Shown piece after piece: positions 8,018-15,506 of a DNA stretch of 23,363 nt. The stretch spans positions 1 to 23,363 of the IMG/VR virus record IMGVR_UViG_3300046028_001204, one strand, 5' to 3'. The stretch comes from a virus. The notes below the pieces were generated by a model. The model was not told where the DNA came from and made no database searches. It saw only the letters and a program-made list of their open reading frames with translations. How positions within the stretch are numbered: the first letter of the stretch is position 1; each line of letters starts with the position of its first letter. The position numbers and the translations under genes are program-made.

Positions 8018-8199
8018 GCCTTTTCCTCAATGTATTTGGCGTAAGCATCTTCTAGTTTGGCTTTGCGGTCACCTTTTGAGTATTCACGCTCAGTATTTAG
8101 GGCGATGGCTACGGCCTGTTTCTTTGGCTTGCCAGCCTTCATTTCGGTTTTGATGTTCTTGCCGATTGCTTCTGCGCTGCCTGATTTGTCTAATGGCAT
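8014..8199 (-). CDS. Small basic protein (DUF6496-like), 61 residues
   Basis: Begins MPLDKSGSAEAIGKNIKTEM and continues KAGKPKKQAVAIALNTERE. The pattern S-x-E-A-x-x-K-N-I-x-x-E-M-x-A-G-K-P-x-K-Q-A-V-A-I-A is typical of a common short phage family of unknown function. It lies 2 nt after the ferritin-like gene and overlaps the next start through GTGA. Basic and soluble. The family assignment is from memory and moderately sure. Confidence 0.7.
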   Translation of the reverse strand: MPLDKSGSAEAIGKNIKTEMKAGKPKKQAVAIALNTEREYSKGDRKAKLEDAYAKYIEEKA

Positions 8200-8201
8200 G
8201 A

Positions 8202-8561
8202 TTAGGCCTTAAATTTAAGTAAATAAATGGTTGTGTCAATCTCTTGGGCGATATTGTCAATAAGTTGCACAATCTCGGAATCCATTGGTAGGTCTGCCCG
8301 TGCATCTTTGACAAACGCTTTTAATGATTGTAGGTATGCCAGCGGCTCTTTAGGCATATGGTAAGTGGCGGGGAACTCAGTAATTTGACCGTAGCAACCG
8401 AAATAGGCTTCAGCCAGTTCATCGGTTAATTCAATAATCCGCTCGTAAAAGCCGCCTAAAGCCTTGTGCTTGGCATAAGATTTAGTGGCCCAATGGAAAA
8501 AATGGGTGTTTGTGCCTGAATGTAGCATGGTTGCAAGAAACAACGCCATTGACTTTTCCAT
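8202..8561 (-). CDS. Ferritin/Dps-like helical protein (DUF5856-like)
   Basis: 119 residues, almost all helical by eye. The region HFFHWATKSYAKHKALGGFY (20-39), then ERIIELTDELAEAYFGCYG, recalls Dps and ferritin-like four-helix proteins, in which His and Glu/Asp on helices bind metal. Related short phage proteins are often named DUF5856. The start at 8561 has AAGGA five bases upstream. It lies between RusA and the tiny basic genes. Whether it stores iron, protects DNA or acts in something else is not shown; the full Dps ferroxidase pattern is not evident. Confidence 0.55.
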   Translation of the reverse strand: MEKSMALFLATMLHSGTNTHFFHWATKSYAKHKALGGFYERIIELTDELAEAYFGCYGQITEFPATYHMPKEPLAYLQSLKAFVKDARADLPMDSEIVQLIDNIAQEIDTTIYLLKFKA

Positions 8562-8569
8562 ATGAATCC

Positions 8570-8947
8570 TTATTTTATGGGTGCATTTTCATCTATTTTA
8601 TCAAGAATATCAATAAGTACCAAGCATCCACCGCCTTTTTTTATTTCGCCCCGTTCAACAATCAAAACATCAATTTGTTCATCGTCTTCAAATACGCCAG
8701 CATCGCCTAAAGCATCCCATAGGGCCTTGATGCGGTTGTCAATATCTTGCTTCCTGCGGTCACGGGGGTATAAAACTACCTTCATTTCAAGCCTAGCTTT
8801 ACCTAGCTTTGGCACTTTGTATTCCACAACATAATCGCTGACCTGCGCTTTGAACTCTTTGCCAGCCTTGCTAATGCCCATTCTGTTACGGAATATGGTG
8901 CGGTAGCTGTTTACGCTAGGCGGCAGGGGTAAGTTTAGGACTAGCAT
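8570..8947 (-). CDS. rusA: RusA-like Holliday junction resolvase
   Basis: 125 residues. The N-terminus LPLPPSVNSYRTIFRN (6-21) and the catalytic stretch RRKQDIDNRIKALWDALGDA (64-83, acidic residues D68 and D70) followed by GVFEDDEQID (84-93) match RusA, a homodimeric endonuclease that resolves four-way junctions before packaging. Length equals the family norm (about 120). It overlaps the Ref-like gene by 7 nt. Catalytic acids appear complete, so it is probably active. Confidence 0.92.
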   Translation of the reverse strand: MLVLNLPLPPSVNSYRTIFRNRMGISKAGKEFKAQVSDYVVEYKVPKLGKARLEMKVVLYPRDRRKQDIDNRIKALWDALGDAGVFEDDEQIDVLIVERGEIKKGGGCLVLIDILDKIDENAPIK

Positions 8948-9213
8948 ATCAGCGCCAATGTTTGTTCGAGTAATTGTTCTTCTGTAACGGCATACTCTGC
9001 TTCAAAGCGTTTTCTACCCATTCCGTGAATACTGGTATTTGAGCCTCTATGGTGATAGGGGCAGAGCGGGATAACAGGAGAGCTGCTTCGTACGCCACTT
9101 CTTCTAATGTGATGGAGTTCCGCTGGCGTTCCCTCAGTGCCGAGATACCTACATAATGAGCATCCCAGTTCAGCAATTTTTCGGTAGGTTTCTTTTTCGG
9201 CTTTTGTGGGCAT
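8941..9213 (-). CDS. Ref-like / HNH zinc-binding nuclease
   Basis: 90 residues. A Cys/His pattern is clear: C18-x2-C21, HH at 34-35 (ELHHIRRSG), C51-x2-HH at 54-55 (PLCPYHHRGSN), then IHGMGRKRFEAEY (62-74). This order matches the C-terminal nuclease domain of phage P1 Ref and related DUF968-like proteins, which aid recombination by cutting at RecA-made structures. It is short, so it would be the nuclease core alone. The ATG directly follows the previous TAA. Pairing with RusA suggests a DNA recombination and processing module. Confidence 0.8.
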   Translation of the reverse strand: MPTKAEKETYRKIAELGCSLCRYLGTEGTPAELHHIRRSGVRSSSPVIPLCPYHHRGSNTSIHGMGRKRFEAEYAVTEEQLLEQTLALIC

Positions 9214-9378
9214 TTAAGTGTTGGCATTATCCACGCTGAGTTGTTCTAGTTTTTCTGCCGATTCAGCAATATCAACGGCAATCTGCATAGTAAGCACTTT
9301 GTCATTGCTAGCAAGTGCAATTTCGTACATTTTTACCAGCGATTTAAGTATTAACAGTTCTTCGGCTAGATTAATCAT
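9214..9378 (-). CDS. Small helical protein, 54 residues, unknown
   Basis: Begins MINLAEELLILKSLVKMYEI and continues with an Ala/Glu/Asp-rich helix to the end. ATG overlaps the previous stop as ATGA, and its TAA abuts the ATG of the Ref-like gene, so it belongs to the same translated run. Acidic, with no membrane segment and no recognised domain. Confidence 0.55.
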   Translation of the reverse strand: MINLAEELLILKSLVKMYEIALASNDKVLTMQIAVDIAESAEKLEQLSVDNANT

Positions 9379-9704
9379 CGTGTCATTTTCTCTAAATTTC
9401 GGTTGCTAGCTTGTTCTGTGCGCCAAGCATCAAAGCGCATTGTAGCCGCAGTTATTTGCCATTTGAGTGTTTCTGCGTTTTCTGTGGCTTTGCCTATTGC
9501 AACGCACAAGTCTTGATACTCTTGGCTTGAATAGGCTTCACGCTCCTGCCCGCCTAAACTTTGCTCACTAGACTTTTTCATCATAATGGCTTTCAGGCTT
9601 GATTTATAAGCCTCTAGCTGGGCCAATTGACCTTTGGCCTCTGCATATTTCGGGGCGTGTGTGTATATGTAGTTGATTGCTTCGTGTGGGTCGTATTCAG
9701 TCAT
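9375..9704 (-). CDS. Helical phage protein of unknown function, 109 residues
   Basis: Predicted mostly coiled coil, with KYAEAKGQLAQLEAYKSSLK (about 19-38), a central AYSSQEYQDLCVAIGKAT, and a conserved-looking end AATMRFDAWRTEQASNRN. The ending resembles unannotated proteins seen in replication and recombination clusters of phages. Both ends overlap neighbours by ATGA. No catalytic motif is seen; a structural or adaptor role in DNA metabolism is possible. Confidence 0.65.
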   Translation of the reverse strand: MTEYDPHEAINYIYTHAPKYAEAKGQLAQLEAYKSSLKAIMMKKSSEQSLGGQEREAYSSQEYQDLCVAIGKATENAETLKWQITAATMRFDAWRTEQASNRNLEKMTR

Positions 9705-9859
9705 TTTCCAAGTATTTCCTTTATTCGTTTTTTAACATCGGCTTCTGTTTCTTTGTTGCGTTCAATCAATTCTTTGACCCTATTCCAATCGTTGTAACGC
9801 CTTGCTCTTGCTATGTAGGATTGGGCCAAATATTCAATGCGCTGTTTATAGCTGTTCAT
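9701..9859 (-). CDS. Small basic helical protein, 52 residues, unknown
   Basis: Starts MNSYKQRIEYLAQSYIARAR and ends ADVKKRIKEILGK. Rich in Arg, Lys and Glu, likely two helices. It overlaps the replication-type gene upstream by 14 nt and the next gene by ATGA. Charge suggests DNA or protein contact; nothing more specific can be said. Confidence 0.55.
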   Translation of the reverse strand: MNSYKQRIEYLAQSYIARARRYNDWNRVKELIERNKETEADVKKRIKEILGK

Positions 9860-10229
9860 CTAACTGCTTAATCTTTTGACTAATTCTTGCCCGCCATTGT
9901 TGCCAGCCTTCACCAGCGTAAGCAGGGCAGCCAACTTCTTGGGCTTTGGCTTTCGTTAAATCTTCGCTGGAATACCAAGGTAATTCAGGCTTTTTGGCTT
10001 TTTTGATTTCCATATCAAGTTCATCTTCCCAGCGGCCCTGATTCAACCAAGTTGCTGGGTGCGGTATGAAGTCTTTTTCAGTCTGCTTTAACTTCCAATA
10101 TTCCAAATGGTTAGGAAGGGCTAGGAACGCATCTTCTTGCTCTTGACGGGTTAGCCTGTCCCATGACTTCTCGGCAGCCCTGCGGCCTTGTTTGCGAGGA
10201 TAAAGCGCATAAAAATCAGCAAAGTTCAT
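9846..10229 (-). CDS. Replication-type protein C-terminal-like domain
   Basis: 127 residues. It begins FADFYALYPRKQGRRAAEKS (3-22), followed by LTRQEQEDAFLALPNH and FIPHPATWLNQGRWEDEL. This FxxxYPRKxGxxxAxxxW ... HPATWLNxxRWxDE signature ends many phage helicase-loader or primosomal proteins. Here the segment is nearly alone, without the usual N-terminal winged-helix DNA-binding part, so it may act with another protein. It overlaps the previous stop by ATGA. Role in helicase loading is inferred from the family. Confidence 0.7.
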   Translation of the reverse strand: MNFADFYALYPRKQGRRAAEKSWDRLTRQEQEDAFLALPNHLEYWKLKQTEKDFIPHPATWLNQGRWEDELDMEIKKAKKPELPWYSSEDLTKAKAQEVGCPAYAGEGWQQWRARISQKIKQLDEQL

Positions 10230-10432
10230 TTTTCGGCTGCCCTTCTCAATATTTCCCTAGCAAAAGTAAAAATATTGCAGTCTTTAGGCACTAAAAATTT
10301 GCTACATATTTCCCTGATTTCATCGTCTGTTAAGTCTTTGTTTACAAGCGTGACTTCGCCAGCGTTTACATTAACGGTCAATGAACCGTCTTTTTCGGCA
10401 ATGATTCGGTCTTCAGTAGTGAAAGTTGTCAT
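10226..10432 (-). CDS. Small protein, 68 residues, unknown
   Basis: Acidic N-terminal half with beta-like segments (SLTVNVNAGEVTLVNKDLTD) and a helical C-terminus (FTFAREILRRAAEK). No family recognised. Overlaps both neighbours by ATGA: the zinc-ribbon gene upstream and the replication-type gene downstream. Confidence 0.6.
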   Translation of the reverse strand: MTTFTTEDRIIAEKDGSLTVNVNAGEVTLVNKDLTDDEIREICSKFLVPKDCNIFTFAREILRRAAEK

Positions 10433-10575
10433 TTTTTCTTTGCGTACCTTGGTTCGTTAATCTTTAAAGTGCAGGCGGTGCATTTCCAACGGTTAATTTT
10501 GCCAGCTTTAATCATCTTGCCGTAATCTGCTGGGCGCATCACCTGACAGCTGGTGCAGTAGCGTTTTTCAGTCAT
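10429..10575 (-). CDS. Zinc-ribbon mini-protein, 48 residues
   Basis: Reads MTEKRYCTSCQVMRPADY, later INRWKCTACTLKINEPRY, ending AKKK. The two C-x2-C pairs (C7/C10 and C33/C36) 22 residues apart make a small zinc ribbon, with a basic tail. Such proteins bind nucleic acid or RNA polymerase in many phages (general knowledge). The ATG lies inside the end of the membrane mini-gene (8-nt overlap), and its stop overlaps the next start by ATGA. Confidence 0.7.
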   Translation of the reverse strand: MTEKRYCTSCQVMRPADYGKMIKAGKINRWKCTACTLKINEPRYAKKK

Positions 10576-10672
10576 GGTTCACCCAAAAATATAAGATTCC
10601 AGCAAATACCATCAGAGTTGCGAATATCGCAAATACCCCGATGGCAAAGACAATCATTATCGTTTCAATCAT
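10568..10672 (-). CDS. 34-residue single-span membrane mini-protein
   Basis: Reads MIETIMIVFAIGVFAIFATL, then MVFAGILYFWVNHD. One long hydrophobic helix fills almost the whole protein, with acidic residues at the start and HD at the end. It overlaps the signal-peptide gene by ATGA and the zinc-ribbon gene by 8 nt, an arrangement hard to explain without translation. Function unknown; a membrane-acting early protein or accessory holin-like peptide is possible. Confidence 0.5.
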   Translation of the reverse strand: MIETIMIVFAIGVFAIFATLMVFAGILYFWVNHD

Positions 10673-10968
10673 TGCATAACTCTTACGCTGGGCGGGCTTG
10701 GGGGCGTCATAGGCACGGTATACCTAGGAATTCCGATAGCTGCCCCTGACGGTGTTACGATTTGGTTGGGGTAAACCGTCAATGGTTGGCCTACGGTATT
10801 GCCTTGCGGGGTTAATACATTGACCGTATTGCCGTTTTGCTGGATATAGCCAGTAACTTGGCCCTGTGGGTTTGTAATTACATAGGTTTGAGCGTGTGCA
10901 GGAACGCCATAAGCAAACATTGCACCGATAATCGCACCTAATAAAGCAGCGCCTAATAAATCTTTCAT
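10669..10968 (-). CDS. Exported small protein with signal peptide
   Basis: 99 residues. The first 26 form a signal peptide: MKDLLGAALLGAIIGAMFAY, then GVPAHA with a likely cut before QTYV (A-H-A motif). The mature part is Thr/Val/Pro/Gln-rich with the phrases VITNPQGQVTGYIQQNGNTV and TPSGAAIGIPRYTVPM, and a proline-rich tail. It would act in the periplasm or outer envelope. Family unknown to me; roles such as superinfection exclusion are conceivable but not shown. It starts 1 nt after the upstream stop. Confidence 0.65.
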   Translation of the reverse strand: MKDLLGAALLGAIIGAMFAYGVPAHAQTYVITNPQGQVTGYIQQNGNTVNVLTPQGNTVGQPLTVYPNQIVTPSGAAIGIPRYTVPMTPPSPPSVRVMQ

Positions 10969-10969
10969 G

Positions 10970-11239
10970 TTAATACTCCAATCCAGCGTAATCCATCATA
11001 TTGCATTGGTTTGCAATAAACAGGGTTCTAAGGGCCTGCAACGCTTTGCGTAGCTGGTATTTGTTTGGTTCGGTGCTTTCCGCTTCTTTGATGATTAGGT
11101 AAAGCAAGCCGAATACTTCGTCTTGGTCGTTATAGGCTTGGTAAAGAGCCGATTCCAAGATGCAAACTTTGCGCTCTAGTTCCTGAACCTTAGTCAGCGG
11201 TTTTGGTTTTGTGGTTTTTGTGGTTTTTTTGGTTGTCAT
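10970..11239 (-). CDS. Small helical protein, 89 residues, unknown
   Basis: The start chosen is MTTKKTTKTTKPKPLTKVQE at 11239, 2 nt after the upstream stop; a longer reading from 11287 would lie wholly inside the previous gene and is unlikely. A Lys/Thr-rich N-terminal tail is followed by helices (ELERKVCILESALYQAYNDQ) and RKALQALRTLFIANQCN. No family recognised. The ribosome binding site is weak (GGCGG), suggesting coupling to the gene before it. Confidence 0.6.
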   Translation of the reverse strand: MTTKKTTKTTKPKPLTKVQELERKVCILESALYQAYNDQDEVFGLLYLIIKEAESTEPNKYQLRKALQALRTLFIANQCNMMDYAGLEY

Positions 11240-11241
11240 GA

Positions 11242-11595
11242 TTAGGCCGCCATTTTCAAGGTTGTGTTGATATAAGGTTTGTTCCACTCGCCTACACGCA
11301 TATTGATGTAAAACGCAATGTGGAAATAGTCTGTCATTGAGTCTGATTCGTCAAACCATTTGCGGTCAGAGCCGTTTTTGATAATGTCTAATACCTGCTT
11401 CCAAAACTCAGGATGGCTTGTATCGTCTAGGTAATACTGGTTGATTTGACCGTCTACTAGGTCTAAGTTGCCTTTAAGCACAGCAACATGAAGGGCCATG
11501 CTGTCTTGTTTGCGGACTGAAAATTTGATTGTTGGGAAAGCAGCTTTGAGAGCGTTGCGGATTTGCGCTGTTTCTTGTGCATTGATGTAAGCCAT
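11242..11595 (-). CDS. First gene of leftward unit, LPD29-like domain protein
   Basis: 117 residues. The opening INAQETAQIRNALKAAFPTI (4-23) followed by KFSVRKQDSMALHV resembles the small domain called LPD29 in large polyvalent mobile-element proteins, also found alone in phages; function unknown. The end reads FYINMRVGEWNKPYINTTLK. It has the strong AAAAGGAATAG ribosome binding site shared with the gene at 14639 and lies right behind the operator-bearing leftward promoter, so it is the first product of the leftward train. Confidence 0.65.
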   Translation of the reverse strand: MAYINAQETAQIRNALKAAFPTIKFSVRKQDSMALHVAVLKGNLDLVDGQINQYYLDDTSHPEFWKQVLDIIKNGSDRKWFDESDSMTDYFHIAFYINMRVGEWNKPYINTTLKMAA

Positions 11596-11614
11596 TTTCT
11601 ATTCCTTTTCTTTT

Positions 11615-11632
11615 TCACTCGACATTGAGTAA
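11615..11632 (-). promoter_or_regulatory. 5'-leader hairpin of leftward unit
   Basis: On the minus strand TTACTC-AATGTC-GAGTGA forms a six-pair stem (one G-U) between the -10 box and the ribosome binding site. The leader of the gene at 14639 holds an equivalent hairpin with changed bases that keep pairing, which supports an RNA role such as mRNA protection or translation control. Confidence 0.5.
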
Positions 11633-11636
11633 CGCT

Positions 11637-11665
11637 ATTATGTTAAGTTTTCTTAACTTTGTAAA
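11637..11665 (-). promoter_or_regulatory. Leftward promoter of the 11,595-to-1 unit
   Basis: On the minus strand -35 TTTACA (11665-11660), 17-nt spacer, -10 CATAAT (11642-11637). The operator fills the spacer. It precedes the whole leftward gene train, which has hardly any gaps, so this may be its main promoter. Confidence 0.65.
11642..11657. promoter_or_regulatory. Operator, perfect copy
   Basis: GTTAAG-TTTT-CTTAAC, a perfect 6+6 inverted repeat lying between -35 and -10 of the leftward promoter. The same motif with one or two changes lies at three other promoters of this switch region. The probable binder is the repressor at 12082-12303. Confidence 0.7.
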
Positions 11666-11708
11666 GTTTTATTTTATGCGGAAAACCCTGATGCGTTGTT
11701 TTTTTACA

Positions 11709-12060
11709 TAGCTAGCCCAAAGGTGATAAGCCTTCATCCATTCAAGAAGTTGTACTTGAACTAATGCTCCCAAAGGTAATGTTCAATCGTTATAGGGCTT
11801 GTCTCACCATTGTTCCTATAACTTGTGCTGTACCCATTTAAGTCAGCGAGGCTTGCCATCAGGTGTAAATGAGCCTATCTTTTCTTTCCAGCGGGCGATT
11901 TAACCCCATTGCTATCGTGAGAAGTACGACTGGGGAATAGACAATAAAAAAGGACATTAGGGGTGGCTTTATGCTAGAACGGCTTGGAAAATGCCTCTTT
12001 ATCTCATTTCCCAAACCCACAAAGTCACCTCTAATGCCCTAATCTGAGTGTTCTAGTCCT
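11709..12060. other. Non-coding segment with dense RNA folding potential
   Basis: No convincing gene. Pairings seen: 11952-11970 with 12021-12039 (19 positions: 16 Watson-Crick, 2 G-U, 1 mismatch as plus-strand RNA), an inner helix 11984-11993 with 12005-12014, and 11974-11980 with 12050-12056 (7 bp, pseudoknotted). Further left: 11722-11732 with 11796-11808 (11 pairs, small bulge), crossed by 11790-11796 with 11815-11821; 11741-11746 with 11755-11760; 11835-11840 with 11866-11871 crossed by 11849-11854 with 11871-11876; 11904-11908 with 11931-11935. A direct repeat CCCAAAGGTRAT stands at 11716 and 11769. The short pairs could be chance; the long helices are unlikely to be. It may be a phage structured RNA; strand not settled, with G-U pairs slightly favouring plus. 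Confidence 0.4.
11946..12039 (-). terminator. Possible terminator behind the repressor gene
   Basis: On the minus strand the 19-position stem (12039-12021 with 11970-11952), enclosing a second stem, is followed at once by six T (11951-11946). That resembles a rho-independent terminator 42 nt beyond the repressor stop, although the enclosed 50-nt segment is unusually long. Confidence 0.35.
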
Positions 12061-12081
12061 CAATACCTCAATTATGCACCA

Positions 12082-12303
12082 TTATTCCAATTCAGGCCAA
12101 ATTAATTTGTAGGTATTTGGAAATAACGATTTGCGGGTAACGAGGCCGTGTGATTCTTTTTCTAAGGTAGCTGCTAAAAAAATCAATTTATCGTGCGGAA
12201 TGTTGCTTTTTTGCCACATGGATACGGCAGCTACGGAAGTACCTACCATTTTTGATATTCGGGTAGGGCCACCAAGAAGTTTAATGATTGCTGTTGGATT
12301 CAT
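12082..12303 (-). CDS. Cro/YdaS-like HTH repressor
   Basis: 73 residues. An N-terminal helix-turn-helix region runs from LLGGPTRISKMVGTSVAAVS (9-28) into MWQKSNIPHDKLIFLAATLE. The end TRKSLFPNTYKLIWPELE carries the familiar R-x-x-L-F-P-x-x-x-x-x-I-W-P-E-L of short Cro/YdaS-type phage regulators, which bind as dimers. It has no peptidase or oligomerisation domain, unlike lambda CI. It is transcribed away from the rightward early genes across a shared region with two operators, so it probably represses both directions and itself. No good ribosome binding site precedes the ATG; the predicted transcript starts just before it. Confidence 0.85.
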   Translation of the reverse strand: MNPTAIIKLLGGPTRISKMVGTSVAAVSMWQKSNIPHDKLIFLAATLEKESHGLVTRKSLFPNTYKLIWPELE

Positions 12304-12304
12304 A

Positions 12305-12320
12305 CTTTAGTTATCTTAAC
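12305..12320. promoter_or_regulatory. Operator at repressor promoter
   Basis: CTTTAG-TTAT-CTTAAC matches 10 of 12 fixed positions of the operator motif. It covers the -10 box and the start point of the repressor promoter, fitting self-repression. Confidence 0.5.
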
Positions 12321-12341
12321 ATTTTTACAACATATTTACAA
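12313..12341 (-). promoter_or_regulatory. Repressor promoter, possibly leaderless transcript
   Basis: Minus-strand -35 TTGTAA (12341-12336), 17-nt spacer, -10 TAAGAT (12318-12313). A start about 7 nt later would fall at or near 12306, only a few bases before the ATG at 12303, and no ribosome binding site is visible. Confidence 0.45.
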
Positions 12342-12348
12342 ATAAAAC

Positions 12349-12377
12349 TTGCTTTTTTGTTTAAGATGGCTTAACAT
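12349..12377 (+). promoter_or_regulatory. Rightward early promoter
   Basis: -35 TTGCTT (12349-12354), 17-nt spacer, -10 TAACAT (12372-12377). Both boxes are imperfect. The operator at 12360 sits inside it, as in the other promoters of this system. Confidence 0.4.
12360..12375. promoter_or_regulatory. Operator at rightward early promoter
   Basis: TTTAAG-ATGG-CTTAAC, 11 of 12 fixed positions. It lies between the proposed -35 and -10 boxes, so bound repressor would block RNA polymerase. Confidence 0.6.
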
Positions 12378-12383
12378 TGTCGT

Positions 12384-12417
12384 ACGGTATGTGCCGTGAT
12401 AACTACCCAGTCGGGTG
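12384..12417 (+). promoter_or_regulatory. Leader hairpins of the rightward unit
   Basis: Two short hairpins follow the promoter: ACGG-TATGTG-CCGT (12384-12397) and TACCC-AGTC-GGGTG (12404-12417, last pair G-U). The second stands just before the purine-rich ribosome binding region GAGAAAGAG, as the leader hairpins at 11615 and 14600 do. Confidence 0.4.
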
Positions 12418-12431
12418 AGAAAGAGTAAAAA

Positions 12432-12644
12432 ATGAGTGATTATGACCAGCAGTTAGCCGACCAAGTCCAAATGGAATTTGAGTTGGATGAAGTTTTCAAA
12501 GACCTCGAAGATGGAGTTTTACTTACCGAGCGTCAAATCGACCTACTACGCCATTGCTGTGGCTTTCCCGTGAAACACAAACCTAACCAAGTTCTCAAAG
12601 CTGTATTTGATGACTTCGGCACAATTTTTGGAGCAAACAAATGA
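12432..12644 (+). CDS. First rightward early gene, 70-residue acidic protein
   Basis: Begins MSDYDQQLADQVQMEFELDE, continues with LLTERQIDLLRHCCGFPV (about 30-47), and ends VFDDFGTIFGANK. Acidic, soluble, with no helix-turn-helix that I recognise, although it holds the position where lambdoid phages place cro. It could be an anti-repressor, an inhibitor of a host protein or a replication accessory; none is shown. Its stop overlaps the next start as ATGA. Confidence 0.65.
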   Translation: MSDYDQQLADQVQMEFELDEVFKDLEDGVLLTERQIDLLRHCCGFPVKHKPNQVLKAVFDDFGTIFGANK

Positions 12645-13009
12645 ATAACCTTGAACGGGCTTCATTGCCCAAGATAATTTCTATGCTTAACGCTTGTAAG
12701 GTGCAATTTGCCATTGTTGATAGTAGCGGCACTAAGCACGGAAACCTCAATGTAGTAGAGCGCAAGAGCCGTAGGGCGTTGAAGTATCCAATGGGTACAT
12801 TGACTAACTTTTTTGTGCCATTGATTGAGCATTTAAAAGCCGATGAATCCGCAGAAGTGCGATGCAAAGATTACGACATTGAATCTATGCGTAGCAGTAT
12901 TGCCGCTTGGACTAGCAAACGCTGGGGTAACGGGGCTTGCTCAACAATCGTTGATAAAGCTACCAATACTATTTTTGTATTTCGCACCAACAACGAATTG
13001 CCATTTTAA
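12641..13009 (+). CDS. Unknown protein, 122 residues
   Basis: Begins MNNLERASLPKIISMLNACK, with a mixed alpha/beta pattern, a basic patch NVVERKSRRALKYPMGTLTN (about 37-56) and a Trp-containing region IAAWTSKRWGNG (about 87-98). It ends TNNELPF, whose last residues resemble the acidic, Pro-Phe-ending tail of SSB proteins. It lies between the first early gene (ATGA overlap) and the SSB-like gene (10-nt gap). A role in DNA replication or recombination is inferred from context only. Confidence 0.65.
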   Translation: MNNLERASLPKIISMLNACKVQFAIVDSSGTKHGNLNVVERKSRRALKYPMGTLTNFFVPLIEHLKADESAEVRCKDYDIESMRSSIAAWTSKRWGNGACSTIVDKATNTIFVFRTNNELPF

Positions 13010-13019
13010 GGATAAAAAA

Positions 13020-13637
13020 ATGATTATTACTGATACCCAAAAAGATTTTAAGATTGCCCCTGCTGGCAACCACATTGCCCGTTTGTATTCCATTATTGAC
13101 TTGGGCCACCAAGCTACGGAATGGAAGGGCGAAACCAAAATTATGCACAAGGTCGTATTTACTTGGGAATTGCATGGCGATGACGATGCTGGTGAACCAC
13201 TCAAGACCGATGACGGCAAGCCGCTAATCGTTTCTAAACGCTATACGGTGTCATTGGGTGACCAAGCTAGATTGCGCCAAGATTTAGAAGCATGGTCAGG
13301 TAAAAAAATGACTGCCGAGGACCGCAAAAACTTTGACCTTAAAGGCTTGCTGGGTAAGTTCTGCATGGTTAATATCACGCATAGTGAAGATGGCAAGTAC
13401 GCCAACATTAGCGGCATTAGCCCAGTTCCTAGCGCATTGCGTAGCGCACAGCCCGAAGGAATCAACCCGATTAAAATGTTTTGGTTGCAAGAGTTTAGGC
13501 AAGATGAATACGATGCGCTGCCTAAGTATTACAAAGAAAAGATTGCGGAATCGTCTGAATGGCGAGGTCAGAAACAGCGTGAAGCTGCAAAGCCTGCTGT
13601 AAATGACAATCCAATGCCTGACGATATTCCATTCTGA
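13020..13637 (+). CDS. SSB-like phage replication protein (NGO0469-type)
   Basis: 205 residues from the ATG at 13020, which has AAGGA eight bases upstream; a longer frame from 12843 overlaps the previous gene and is rejected. The opening DFKIAPAGNHIARLYSIIDL (8-27) followed by W-K-G-E-T-K, and KRYTVSLGDQARLRQDLEAW, match a phage family often named NGO0469-like replication initiation protein. The C-terminus ends NPMPDDIPF, nearly identical to the E. coli SSB tail that recruits partner proteins. It therefore probably coats single-stranded DNA and recruits host or phage replication factors. The exonuclease gene follows after 7 nt. Confidence 0.75.
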   Translation: MIITDTQKDFKIAPAGNHIARLYSIIDLGHQATEWKGETKIMHKVVFTWELHGDDDAGEPLKTDDGKPLIVSKRYTVSLGDQARLRQDLEAWSGKKMTAEDRKNFDLKGLLGKFCMVNITHSEDGKYANISGISPVPSALRSAQPEGINPIKMFWLQEFRQDEYDALPKYYKEKIAESSEWRGQKQREAAKPAVNDNPMPDDIPF

Positions 13638-13644
13638 GGCCGAT

Positions 13645-14388
13645 ATGATAGTTAAAGAAAAGGTTACAGAAAATGGTCACTGGTATACGAAAGACGGAAC
13701 TCCAGCCTATACAACCATCGGCAAAACTGGCGAAAGAGCGACCACGCTACGGGATGCAAGAAAACTTGGACTTTTGCCAAGCGTTACGACAATTAACGGA
13801 ATGCTATCAAAAGCAGGCCTTGATACATGGAAACAGCAACAAGTCCTCTTAGCCGCTTTAACGCTGCCTAGACTTCCTGACGAACCTGAAAGTGAGTGGC
13901 TTTCACGGGTAATGCAGGATTCCAAGGCTACGGGCCGTGAAGCTGCGGAACGGGGTACTGCTATTCATGCAATTATTGAAGGGTATTTTGACCAAGTCTA
14001 TATGCCTGAAAAGCCAGCGTATTTGGATGCGATTGATAAAGCCTTGGCAAATGCGTTTGGAGAGCAGCTGTGGCTTTCTGAGAAGTCTTTCGGGCATCCG
14101 CTAGGCTTTGGCGGTAAATGCGACCTAATGGCTAAAAACGGCTTTGTTGTAGATTTCAAGACCAAAGACACCGACCTAGATAAAGTTGATGTTTACTTTG
14201 AGCATGAGATGCAACTGGCGGCCTACCGTGAGGGCCTTGGCGTTCCGACTGCAAGGTGCGCTATTGTCTTTGTGAACGGCACGACTAATCAGGTAAAACT
14301 CATTGAGATTGAGGAGCAAAAGCTACAAAATGGCTGGGAATGTTTCCAACACTTATTGCGGGTTTATCAGATTAAAAACGGAATATAA
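13645..14388 (+). CDS. PD-(D/E)XK exonuclease (RecB/Cas4-like)
   Basis: 247 residues, starting at 13645 where GAGG precedes the ATG; an upstream ATG at 13603 lies in the previous gene. RecB-nuclease motifs are complete: RGTAIHAIIEGYF (103-115, H108), GFGGKCDLM (154-162, D160), VVDFKTK (168-174, D170 and K172), and HEMQLAAYREGL (187-198, Q190). Such enzymes process DNA ends for recombination or replication. Pairing with the SSB-like protein makes a recombination module. Catalytic residues are intact. A structured non-coding gap follows. Confidence 0.88.
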   Translation: MIVKEKVTENGHWYTKDGTPAYTTIGKTGERATTLRDARKLGLLPSVTTINGMLSKAGLDTWKQQQVLLAALTLPRLPDEPESEWLSRVMQDSKATGREAAERGTAIHAIIEGYFDQVYMPEKPAYLDAIDKALANAFGEQLWLSEKSFGHPLGFGGKCDLMAKNGFVVDFKTKDTDLDKVDVYFEHEMQLAAYREGLGVPTARCAIVFVNGTTNQVKLIEIEEQKLQNGWECFQHLLRVYQIKNGI

Positions 14389-14390
14389 TT

Positions 14391-14528
14391 GAGTCGGGCG
14401 GCAGGTAGACAAAATCTATGCTCCTTCACGGGACTGCTGACCCACTCTATTCTTAGGGCGTTAAGCCGCCATAGTAGGATGCAGTAAGTTAGGGTTTTTG
14501 CGGCTTTCCACCTAACAGTTTGCAACTG
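14391..14528 (+). other. Structured non-coding gap after the exonuclease gene
   Basis: No gene is seen between 14389 and 14638. Pairings on plus-strand RNA: GAGT 14391 with ACTC 14444, GGG 14396 with CCC 14441, GCAG 14401 with CTGC 14434, enclosing TAGA/TCTA 14406-14418; alternatively GGCGGC 14397 with GCCGCC 14465. Then AAGCCGC 14463-14469 with GCGGCTT 14500-14506, crossed by GTTAGG 14488-14493 with CCTAAC 14511-14516, and a tight hairpin CAGTT-TGC-AACTG 14516-14528. The competing pairs suggest a switchable or pseudoknotted RNA. Part of it repeats a coding sequence at 7774-7795. Confidence 0.4.
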
Positions 14529-14565
14529 CCAAATACTGCCCTGTTGTTTTTATGCAAAATAACGC

Positions 14566-14595
14566 TTTACAAGTTAAGTAATCTTAATATATAAT
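14566..14595 (+). promoter_or_regulatory. Second rightward promoter
   Basis: -35 TTTACA (14566-14571), 18-nt spacer, -10 TATAAT (14590-14595, perfect). The operator occupies the spacer. It drives the three genes to 15506 and closely resembles the leftward promoter at 11637-11665. Confidence 0.7.
14573..14588. promoter_or_regulatory. Operator at second rightward promoter
   Basis: GTTAAG-TAAT-CTTAAT, 11 of 12 fixed positions, between the -35 and -10 boxes. Confidence 0.65.
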
Positions 14596-14599
14596 TACC

Positions 14600-14618
14600 T
14601 TACTCCATTGGGGAGTGA
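14600..14618 (+). promoter_or_regulatory. 5'-leader hairpin of second rightward unit
   Basis: TTACTCC-ATTGG-GGAGTGA forms a seven-pair stem (one G-U). It stands between the -10 box and the ribosome binding site AAAAGGAATAG, exactly as in the leftward leader at 11615-11632. Confidence 0.5.
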
Positions 14619-14638
14619 TATAGAAAAGGAATAGAAAA

Positions 14639-14875
14639 ATGGCTAAGTTAAATAATTATGTAGTTTCTTTGTATTGTGGCGATACCTACCTTGATGTTTA
14701 CGGGTATGTTGATGAAGATGAACCCGATGTAGGCTATATTGGGGGCGTTGATATTGAGGATGTTTGCATAGCAAATACCGAAACCAGCGTATTAGAAATG
14801 ATTCACGGATTAGGCGGCTGGGCCAAGTTTGAGGAAAGCGTTCAAGAAGCCTACGCAGGAAGGAATGACGCATGA
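14639..14875 (+). CDS. Small acidic protein, 78 residues, unknown
   Basis: Begins MAKLNNYVVSLYCGDTYLDV, beta-like, followed by the very acidic YVDEDEPDVGYIGGVDIEDV, and a helical end with GWAKFEESVQEAYAGRNDA. Strong ribosome binding site AAAAGGAATAG. It is the first gene behind a strong, repressor-controlled promoter, so it is likely made early and in quantity. Acidity and DNA-mimic-like charge make an inhibitor of a host DNA-binding protein possible, but that is speculation. Confidence 0.65.
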   Translation: MAKLNNYVVSLYCGDTYLDVYGYVDEDEPDVGYIGGVDIEDVCIANTETSVLEMIHGLGGWAKFEESVQEAYAGRNDA

Positions 14876-15072
14876 ACATACCATATAACACGGGCAAAGT
14901 TCAAATCGGCAAATATTACCAAAAGCCGTTACGCATTGAACAAGACGATGACATGATTGCGCTACAAGGCTATTTGCTTGGAACAAGCAGGGCTGCCCGC
15001 ATAGAGCGCATAGCCAAACGAATTTATTTTGCACTGGTTGTTTTTGGTGTTGTAGTCATGATTTTTATATGA
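14872..15072 (+). CDS. Small membrane-anchored protein, 66 residues
   Basis: A soluble N-terminal part with IEQDDDMIALQGYLLGTSRA is followed by basic residues (ARIERIAKR) and a C-terminal membrane helix IYFALVVFGVVVMIFI. By the positive-inside rule the N-terminus lies in the cytoplasm. Both ends overlap neighbours as ATGA. Function unknown; tail-anchored early phage proteins often act in exclusion or membrane tethering (general knowledge). Confidence 0.6.
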   Translation: MNIPYNTGKVQIGKYYQKPLRIEQDDDMIALQGYLLGTSRAARIERIAKRIYFALVVFGVVVMIFI

Positions 15073-15506
15073 AATACAAAGCATTTAATCAAGCCTTGCA
15101 TGATGCGTGCGACCCCCCAGCCCGCAATGCAGTAGCGGGTTGGCTTAAAACGGTTCACCATGTTGATGCTGTGCCGAACCCTGATAAGTACGCAGTAGAC
15201 CTAATTTTCAGCAAGAATGGGCAGGAAATCGGGTTCGGTGAAGTTGAAGTTCGGGATTGGGGTATGGATTACTGCCCTTACGCAACGATTCATATTGCGC
15301 AGCGTAAAGAAAAGTTGTTCACAAACCCCCGAACTACCATGTATGTAGTCACCCGCAACCTGACCCACGCTTACTGGATTAGGGCCAGCAAAATCAAAGA
15401 ATGCCCGTTAATTGAAGTACCAAACAAAGCAGTAGCTAACGAGGAGTATTTCTACGATGTACCCACGCATATGTGGAAATTTGTAGATTTGAGGGAAATC
15501 TTTTAA
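15069..15506 (+). CDS. Possible PD-(D/E)XK-like protein, 145 residues
   Basis: A central segment AVDLIFSKNGQEIGFGEVEV (about 42-61) has D ... E-x-E spacing in two beta strands, reminiscent of PD-(D/E)XK nuclease cores, followed by RKEKLFTNPRTTMYVVTRNL, where a positively charged helix meets a strand. No clear catalytic Lys is placed as usual, so activity is uncertain. It could be a small endonuclease or an inactive relative. Its stop codon shares bases with the stop of the convergent endolysin gene. Confidence 0.5.
   Translation: MKYKAFNQALHDACDPPARNAVAGWLKTVHHVDAVPNPDKYAVDLIFSKNGQEIGFGEVEVRDWGMDYCPYATIHIAQRKEKLFTNPRTTMYVVTRNLTHAYWIRASKIKECPLIEVPNKAVANEEYFYDVPTHMWKFVDLREIF

Follow-up and report, generated by a model that had tools for sequence, protein, structure and literature searches.

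Probable operators and promoters around a small predicted repressor gene

The stretch of viral DNA analysed here, referred to below as the window, comprises 23,363 nucleotides (positions 1 to 23,363 of IMG/VR virus record IMGVR_UViG_3300046028_001204). Two leftward gene stretches flank rightward genes at 12432-15506. A leftward gene for a 73-residue protein (12303-12082) sits between a leftward promoter at 11665-11637 and a rightward promoter at 12349-12377. We consider this protein a predicted helix-turn-helix repressor, and four sites of the palindromic type GTTAAG-N4-CTTAAC overlap promoters around its gene (Table 1). One site lies in the leftward promoter (L), one in the first rightward promoter (R1), one in a second rightward promoter (R2), and one over the repressor's own promoter (REP).

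The four sites are found exactly where a preliminary description of the sequence had placed them, with no mismatch to the consensus at L, one mismatch each at R1 and R2, and two at REP. Three sites in the window thus have at most one mismatch. Among 100 dinucleotide shuffles, the mean number of such sites was 0.07 and the maximum was two, with no shuffle reaching three, and base composition gives an expectation of 0.071. These values are close to the figure of about 0.05 sites, at 11 or more of 12 matches, that had been proposed earlier. The exact inner core, TTAAG-N4-CTTAA, occurs three times in 23,363 bases (shuffle mean 0.02), and every one of these cores is symmetric and located in a promoter.

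The same description placed three sites between -35 and -10 boxes and the fourth over the -10 box and start of the repressor gene. All four sites do overlap promoter elements, but their geometry had to be corrected. Only the R2 site lies entirely inside a spacer, that of 18 bases between TTTACA and TATAAT. The L site takes up the 17 bases between TTTACA and CATAAT and reaches one base into the -10 box, while the R1 site lies in the TTGCTT/TAACAT spacer and covers four -10 bases. The REP site covers the repressor's -10 box (TAAGAT, located 17 bases from TTGTAA and nine bases upstream of the ATG) as well as the probable start point, and it stops two bases before the ATG at 12303. The promoter boxes are consensus matches, not mapped start sites. 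Because the ATG of the repressor gene forms part of the operator in some relatives, for example GTTAAGATAGCTTATG in locus L014, we predict that the repressor message is leaderless or nearly so.

Table 1. Positions of the predicted repressor gene, its candidate operators and the surrounding features in the window.
Feature	Position	Strand	Basis or associated elements
73-residue repressor gene, P22-Cro/YdaS-like, isoelectric point 9.8	12082..12303	-	Pfam, hhalign, AlphaFold, Foldseek
Operator L, perfect match	11642..11657	-	leftward promoter, -35 TTTACA 11665-11660, -10 CATAAT 11642-11637
Operator REP, over the repressor's own -10	12305..12320	-	-10 TAAGAT 12318-12313, -35 TTGTAA 12341-12336
Operator R1, first rightward promoter	12360..12375	+	-35 TTGCTT 12349-12354, -10 TAACAT 12372-12377
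Operator R2, second rightward promoter	14573..14588	+	-35 TTTACA 14566-14571, -10 TATAAT 14590-14595
L-transcript 5' hairpin (ACTC-loop-GAGT)	11617..11630	-	
R1-transcript 5' hairpins, two in tandem (12384-12397, 12405-12416)	12384..12416	+	
R2-transcript 5' hairpin (ACTCC-loop-GGAGT)	14602..14616	+	
First gene of R1 unit, acidic 70-residue protein, isoelectric point 4.5, in cro's seat	12432..12644	+	
PD-(D/E)XK / Cas4-like exonuclease, final gene upstream of R2	13645..14388	+	Pfam PF12705, PHROG 298
Conserved RNA, proposed pseudoknot, T-run after; immediately upstream of R2	14456..14551	+	alignment; no Rfam family
Second conserved structured RNA, between repressor gene and L	11740..11920	-	alignment
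First gene of R2 unit, 78 residues; slot swapped among relatives	14639..14875	+	
First gene of L unit, 117 residues, LPD29 domain above cut-off; slot swapped among relatives	11242..11595	-	

Conservation of the sites in related phages

Viral contigs were searched with the repressor, which yielded 176 relatives, and 80 of these loci were kept. Locus L001, which shares 406 of 407 sampled 30-mers with the window, represents the same phage and was removed before counting. The conservation set consists of the window and 58 relatives (L002-L059), in which up to two mismatches were allowed when counting the REP, R1 and L sites. REP was found in 58 of 58 loci that cover its position, R1 in 57 of 57, and L in 50 of 59; of the nine loci lacking an L site, four extend less than 600 bases on that side. 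R2 was assessed by its exact core, which is found 110-324 bases after the exonuclease gene in all 37 loci, window included, that contain this gene complete and at least 450 bases beyond it. When the class of repressors sharing the window's recognition helix was enlarged (class 1, below), an exact core followed the exonuclease in 39 of 39 loci. Conservation at the same promoters, suggested in the preliminary description as a check, is thus observed among relatives that share the recognition helix.

Within the sites, the operator arms are conserved and the four spacer bases vary more. Among 90 permuted half-sites, GTTAAG ranks first, with 97 sites against 38 for the runner-up. The genes behind the promoters, on the other hand, are swapped among relatives: across three classes of loci, there are 93 first genes in 32 families at L and 62 in 16 families at R2. 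Because the first genes at L and R2 are swapped while the sites recur, the sites belong to the promoters and not to the genes behind them. Operators precede both units even in locus L041 (repressor 4418-4633), where the repressor block is flipped with respect to the early genes. Two Manatee Spring records, MW202674 and MW202520 (repressor identity 49-51%), also have cores, exact or with one mismatch, both close to the repressor and downstream of an exonuclease-like gene.

Additional matches were considered separately. Further two-mismatch sites occur in the window at 5453 and 7511, and no extra operator of the same kind was accepted there. The weak site at 7511-7526 lies before a ParB-like gene and recurs in seven more loci; no clear promoter or hairpin was seen in the seven copies inspected (the window and six loci). 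One-mismatch sites far to the left in L018 and L034, where no hairpin leader was seen, were taken as chance.

Operator sequence and the recognition helix

If the 73-residue protein is the reader of these sites, it would contact them through its recognition helix, and the sites would therefore be expected to change with that helix. All 62 loci with the helix SV[PA]AVSMWQ have an exact TTAAG core no more than 4 kb from the repressor, and none of 21 loci with a changed helix (L060-L080) does.

We then consider loci selected by the conserved RNA upstream of R2, using a pattern that contains neither operator nor repressor; 80 of 120 stretches were used. All 24 rows with helix SV[PA]AVSMW have a core after the RNA, as does one of 20 with another parsed helix (L150). 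The corresponding numbers are 0 of 7 for an unparsed helix and 14 of 23 for pieces without a repressor, and six rows were too short. For loci first obtained through the RNA scan (L212-L287), the core is found in 13 of 14 with SV[PA]AVSMW, and TTAAG in none of 28 with another parsed helix. Loci found by the RNA pattern and by a cassette pattern are part of what exists, so their numbers are at least the figures given; the cassette pattern includes the operator, and its loci were excluded from the RNA count.

A palindrome scan named no half-site beforehand. Two classes with changed helices were enlarged first, and any exact palindrome with arms of 5 and gaps of 3-8 was recorded within 4 kb of the repressor. 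The expectation came from first-order Markov shuffles at gap 4 and was applied to all gaps. Sites, like the leaders described below, were counted once per distinct context, and L337 and L369, whose repressors are incomplete, were excluded from the class tables. In class 1 (SV[PA]AVSMWQ), the top palindrome is TTAAG at gap 4, with 92 distinct sites against 0.5 expected. In class 2 ([TS]VQAVCQWR) it is TAAAG at gap 4 (20 distinct sites, 0.2 expected), and in class 3 ([ST]QAAVTHWR) it is TTTAG at gap 4 (19 distinct sites, 0.8 expected). TAAAG and TTTAG are each one base per half-site away from TTAAG.

The three half-sites hardly mix. Distinct sites of TTAAG, TAAAG and TTTAG number 92, 0 and 0 in class 1, where TTAAG is present in 62 of 62 loci; 0, 20 and 0 in class 2, where TAAAG is present in 32 of 39 loci; and 1, 0 and 19 in class 3, where TTTAG is present in 19 of 19 loci. 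All three are absent from the other 43 loci. The TAAAG and TTTAG sites occupy the same promoter slots, mostly upstream of the same kind of hairpin. After the exonuclease, 14 of 15 class 3 loci have the type 3 site and one has the type 1 site. Because each of these three helix classes has its own half-site, without mixing except in one locus and with repeated switches, the 73-residue protein very probably binds these sites.

Outside the three classes, the class TTQAVHRWQ (L247 and L352-L368; 18 loci) has TTAGG at gap 6 on top, with 12 distinct sites against 0.3 expected. The classes TPNAVS[QM]WR, EPAAVSQW, DQATVSTWR, APPAVTQWR and SVQAVHKWK have few loci and gave no clear palindrome.

Switching between repressor types

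Apart from the repressor, phages of class 3 are close to those of class 1. Relative to the window's proteins, their exonucleases are 66-85% identical, RusA 86-92% (two loci with the gene) and the terminase 83% (one locus), while their repressors are merely 49-62% identical. On a tree of the exonuclease (77 rows), the members of classes 1 and 3 are intermingled. The tree requires seven label changes, at least four of which are forced by well-supported branches, and class 2 forms a single clade. Seven changes are likewise required on a quick tree of the neighbouring gene, where supported branches impose no more than the minimum. Unless it is the exonuclease gene that moved, the intermingling of classes 1 and 3 means that repressor type and operators have switched jointly on more than one occasion.

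These phages form a natural series, in which the DNA-reading helix and the dispersed operators switch jointly between phages whose other early genes are close. Such a series is a ready-made test bed for protein-DNA specificity.

The predicted repressor and related systems

The preliminary description called the 73-residue protein Cro/YdaS-like. Distant similarity in sequence and predicted fold is consistent with this label, but the protein scores below both Pfam cut-offs and its gene is in cI's seat rather than cro's. For PF14549 (P22_Cro), the match has an expectation value (E) of 2.1e-5 and 24.6 bits, under the gathering cut-off of 30.2, and for PF15943 (YdaS_toxin) E is 1.4e-4 with 22.1 bits, under the cut-off of 30; nothing in NCBIfam was above cut-off. 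Aligned with hhalign, the family profile matches P22 Cro with probability 96 and 35% identity over 49 columns. The AlphaFold model has a mean predicted local distance difference test score of 93.6. In Foldseek, its first rows include YdaS, a Xylella prophage Cro, P22 Cro, N15 Cro and P22 C2, none at E 0.001 or better; the best rows are YdaS of prophage CP-933P (8co2, 8c7k), with E 0.03 and probability 0.99. VIA-align gave Z 5.1 for P22 Cro (1rzs; root-mean-square deviation 4.2, 55 aligned) and merely Z 4.1 for 8co2. There is also a weak sequence match to YdaS (E 0.18-0.25) in a C-terminal stretch ending IWPE.

The closest known arrangement is that of phage P22. Its annotated OL and OR each hold the exact core TTAAG-N4-CTTAA once (TTTAAGACTTCTTAAT, GTTAAGTCATCTTAAA), and its layout, OL-repressor-OR, is the same. 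Lambda likewise has this layout. In the window, the lambdoid-type feature is present in that operators flank the repressor gene over divergent promoters, with L at 11642 on one side and REP at 12305 and R1 at 12360 on the other, the promoters being assigned by consensus only. The repressor gene is leftward and in C2's seat, not first in the rightward unit divergent from CI or C2. P22 differs in that it has both C2 and Cro, has three annotated operators per side, and is temperate. In contrast, the window has one Cro-like protein in C2's seat and an acidic 70-residue protein in Cro's seat, with a single site at each of the three outward promoters and a further one over that of the repressor itself.

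For published systems, our comparisons draw on excerpts of the cited papers. The operator listed for PDB entry 2R1J, CATTTAAGATATCTTAAATA, includes TTAAG-N4-CTTAA (PMC9976882). Because P22 OL and OR and the 2R1J operator hold the core, and because P22 Cro aligns with the 73-residue protein, operator type and protein type appear to agree with P22. YdaS of the E. coli prophage CP-933P is described as a Cro analogue that binds over its own and the divergent promoter, at a palindrome with the 18-bp consensus GTTTAGTAA (PMC8630535). YdaS works opposite PaaR2 and beside YdaT, whereas neither partner kind was recognised in the window. Cro of the telomere phage PY54 is also small, is likened to the all-helical class, and comes from a phage with leaderless cI and cro messages; it differs in that it binds one site only and works with CI (PMC4488713). 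In PY54, phage specificity is set by two peripheral operator base pairs (PMC4488713).

In cluster A mycobacteriophages, as here, dispersed sites differ between related phages along with the repressor (PMC6550527). Their sites, however, are mostly in one orientation and mostly outside promoters, can number as many as 30 per genome, and belong to temperate phages (PMC6550527). The window sites are symmetric, few and in promoters, and do not match the stoperator-type pattern. A search of the open-licence PMC literature found no paper describing the circuit, and the excerpts of a pelagiphage transcriptome paper (PMC12753301) and a 933W repressor paper (PMC3317979) had no bearing on it. The operator is of a known kind, that of P22; the variant is a lone Cro/YdaS-like repressor in CI's seat. 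What is unexpected is the occurrence of several operator specificities in phages where searches revealed no lysogeny genes.

A proposed repressor circuit and its alternatives

We consider it highly probable that a single helix-turn-helix repressor controls L, R1, R2 and itself through TTAAG-N4-CTTAA sites. The preliminary description had proposed one small repressor for the leftward train, the early rightward genes, a second rightward unit and itself. Sequence comparison lends support to this proposal: the units match the anatomy of the locus, and the sites change with the helix in two further classes.

In the proposed circuit, repressor would be made from an almost leaderless message, and a symmetric repressor dimer would bind TTAAG-N4-CTTAA in the promoters of the leftward train, the early rightward genes and the second rightward unit. 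Located on or between the -35 and -10 boxes at L, R1 and R2, the dimer would block RNA polymerase. The weaker site over the repressor's own -10 box would provide negative feedback that sets the repressor level, and the degenerate right half of REP suggests a lower affinity and late self-repression. Early transcription would then fall as repressor builds up, as under a brake, and if a second phage of this type were present, its corresponding promoters would be held down as well.

Several observations weigh against this circuit or limit its support. The loci are related, so the counts are not independent. Base composition predicts about 1.2 sites with two or fewer mismatches, so the REP site at 12305 is unremarkable alone; because it is present in all covering loci, we take it to be real on the strength of conservation and not of match score. 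Five loci (L023-L026 and L028), one group on a quick tree, cover the L region yet lack the L site. In L024, the one read, the leftward genes directly follow the repressor and would be driven from the repressor's own promoter. Near-matches with one core mismatch persist beside the changed-helix repressors of L065, L067, L068, L070, L071, L074 and L078. In class 2, the leader-hairpin word ACGGC (gap 6) tied with the operator word TAAAG, and only 9 of the 28 loci covered have the motif in the 600 bases that follow the exonuclease. Class 3 shows no REP site with one mismatch or fewer. L150 (repressor 3561-3797) combines a class 3 repressor and class 3 R1 and L sites with a type 1 R2 site, and is likely a recombinant. 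The remaining six class rows of the palindrome scan gave no clear operator. Finally, no late leftward promoter stood out, with 18 promoter-like sites at 1-12000 against 20.9 expected.

What the circuit does during infection depends in part on which genes accompany it. Integrase (PF00589) was found in none of 18 and none of 12 records (30 in total), some of them fragments, and the cleavable S24 repressor domain (PF00717) in none of 18 records, which may be fragments. Neither a resolvase nor a ParA-type ATPase was found in 21 records, which may likewise include fragments. A scan of 84,980 bacterial and archaeal genomes gave 39 pattern matches, none of them a relative, and reaches close relatives only. 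HTH_3 was above cut-off in one of 18 records, in an additional 152-residue frame of L084 (G009:C1:31491-31586). Because no integrase, S24 domain, ParA-type ATPase, resolvase or relative in the genome collection was found, a brake on early transcription would be the simplest role.

A serious rival to the brake keeps the same binding and assigns the repressor a CI-type immunity function. Repressor would then hold a dormant or carrier state without integration, or would protect from phages of the same type, and the operator types would be heteroimmunity groups. The OL-repressor-OR layout, a gene in cI's seat and a predicted near-leaderless message, as described for cI and paaR2 in excerpts of PMC8630535, are all consistent with this role. 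So is the fact that closely related phages have repeatedly switched repressor type and dispersed operators, as specificity groups are expected of immunity: in cluster A mycobacteriophages, distinct subclusters with distinct stoperators are heteroimmune (PMC6550527). The same gene searches that favour a brake count against immunity, within the limits given with them, and we regard an immunity role as possible but doubtful.

On that reading, phages without recognised lysogeny genes would still fall into immunity-like groups, a lone Cro-like repressor would have taken CI's seat, and repressor type would repeatedly be exchanged jointly with operators dispersed across about 3 kb. We tentatively suggest that this would imply selection by repressor-based exclusion between phages or by a repressor-held carrier state. 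Such a reading, if true, concerns phages that would be called strictly lytic from gene content, and if the repressor gives immunity, gene-content rules for 'strictly lytic' overlook an immunity layer in a widespread phage group.

The remaining alternatives question the regulator itself. Conserved promoter palindromes can in general be sites of host factors, and repressor binding is here inferred, so the sites could belong to a host regulator or another phage regulator, with the 73-residue gene merely nearby. This appears very improbable, as the site sequence tracks the repressor helix even where the other early genes are close. We give still less weight to a YdaS-type toxin whose unit is controlled by the sites. 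PF15943 is named 'Bacterial toxin YdaS', but the YdaS of CP-933P is argued to be a Cro analogue and not a member of a toxin-antitoxin pair (excerpts of PMC8630535); moreover, no YdaT-like neighbour was seen, the adjacent 70-residue protein having no Pfam match better than E 0.15. Chance AT-rich palindromes, which could explain the two-mismatch REP site taken alone, have a negligible probability, refuted as they are by the conservation, the shuffle counts (0.07 against three seen), the class-specific palindromes and the RNA-picked loci.

Leader hairpins, conserved RNAs and neighbouring genes

In addition to the single-repressor circuit, the region has several RNA features. The L, R1 and R2 transcripts start with a short hairpin of the form AC-stem-loop-stem-GT-G, which is present in 29 of 40 distinct L leaders, 33 of 35 R1 leaders and 31 of 34 R2 leaders. 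About 1% of shuffled leaders have such a hairpin, and the real leaders show 15 different 5' arms. Because the stems differ yet stay paired, they point to a role of the hairpins as RNA; protection of the message 5' end is our guess. Ten of the 11 L leaders without a hairpin belong to L043-L056, where most L leaders go straight into the ATG. Two of the three R2 leaders without one, in L033 and L054 (GTTATGGCGGCTTAAC), are extra motif matches inside the conserved RNA and were rejected as promoters.

The two conserved RNAs were aligned using the window and 33 of 37 retrieved sequences for the R2-side RNA, and the window and 23 of 24 for the L-side RNA. Across the 34 sequences of the R2-side RNA, pairing holds in 99.8% of cells. 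Both partners have changed in 11 of the 25 pairs, such changes occur in four of five helices, and the covariation score exceeds that of every shuffle. The pseudoknot helix, placed by eye on the same alignment, depends on one changed pair in three sequences. Plain folding of this RNA is no better than that of shuffled sequence (z -0.22), and the structure is visible by alignment only. The R2-side RNA has a blastn match in 51 loci, some from the same records (for example L028:3505-3620), and also occurs in phages of other repressor classes. In the L-side RNA, 96% of cells are paired and 20 of 30 pairs changed on both sides, with the structure derived from the same alignment; this RNA also occurs in MW202674. 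Neither RNA matched Rfam, beyond one chance-level miRNA match on the other strand of the L-side RNA.

The window is probably a fragment of a larger phage genome, because the records of near relatives run 34-37 kb. For its large terminase, the closest matches listed from a phage collection share about 40-44% identity; they are those of Methylophilales phage Venkman and of pelagiphages such as HTVC010P. The exonuclease matches Pfam PF12705 with 22.8 bits, barely over the cut-off of 22, as well as PHROG 298. The acidic 70-residue protein has a charge of about -7, against +4 for the repressor, and is present in 57 of 62 class 1 loci; it could be the repressor's partner or antagonist. Just 3' of the repressor gene, on the same strand at about 11945-12040, a long two-part hairpin followed by six T (fold z -4.4) is probably the repressor's terminator.

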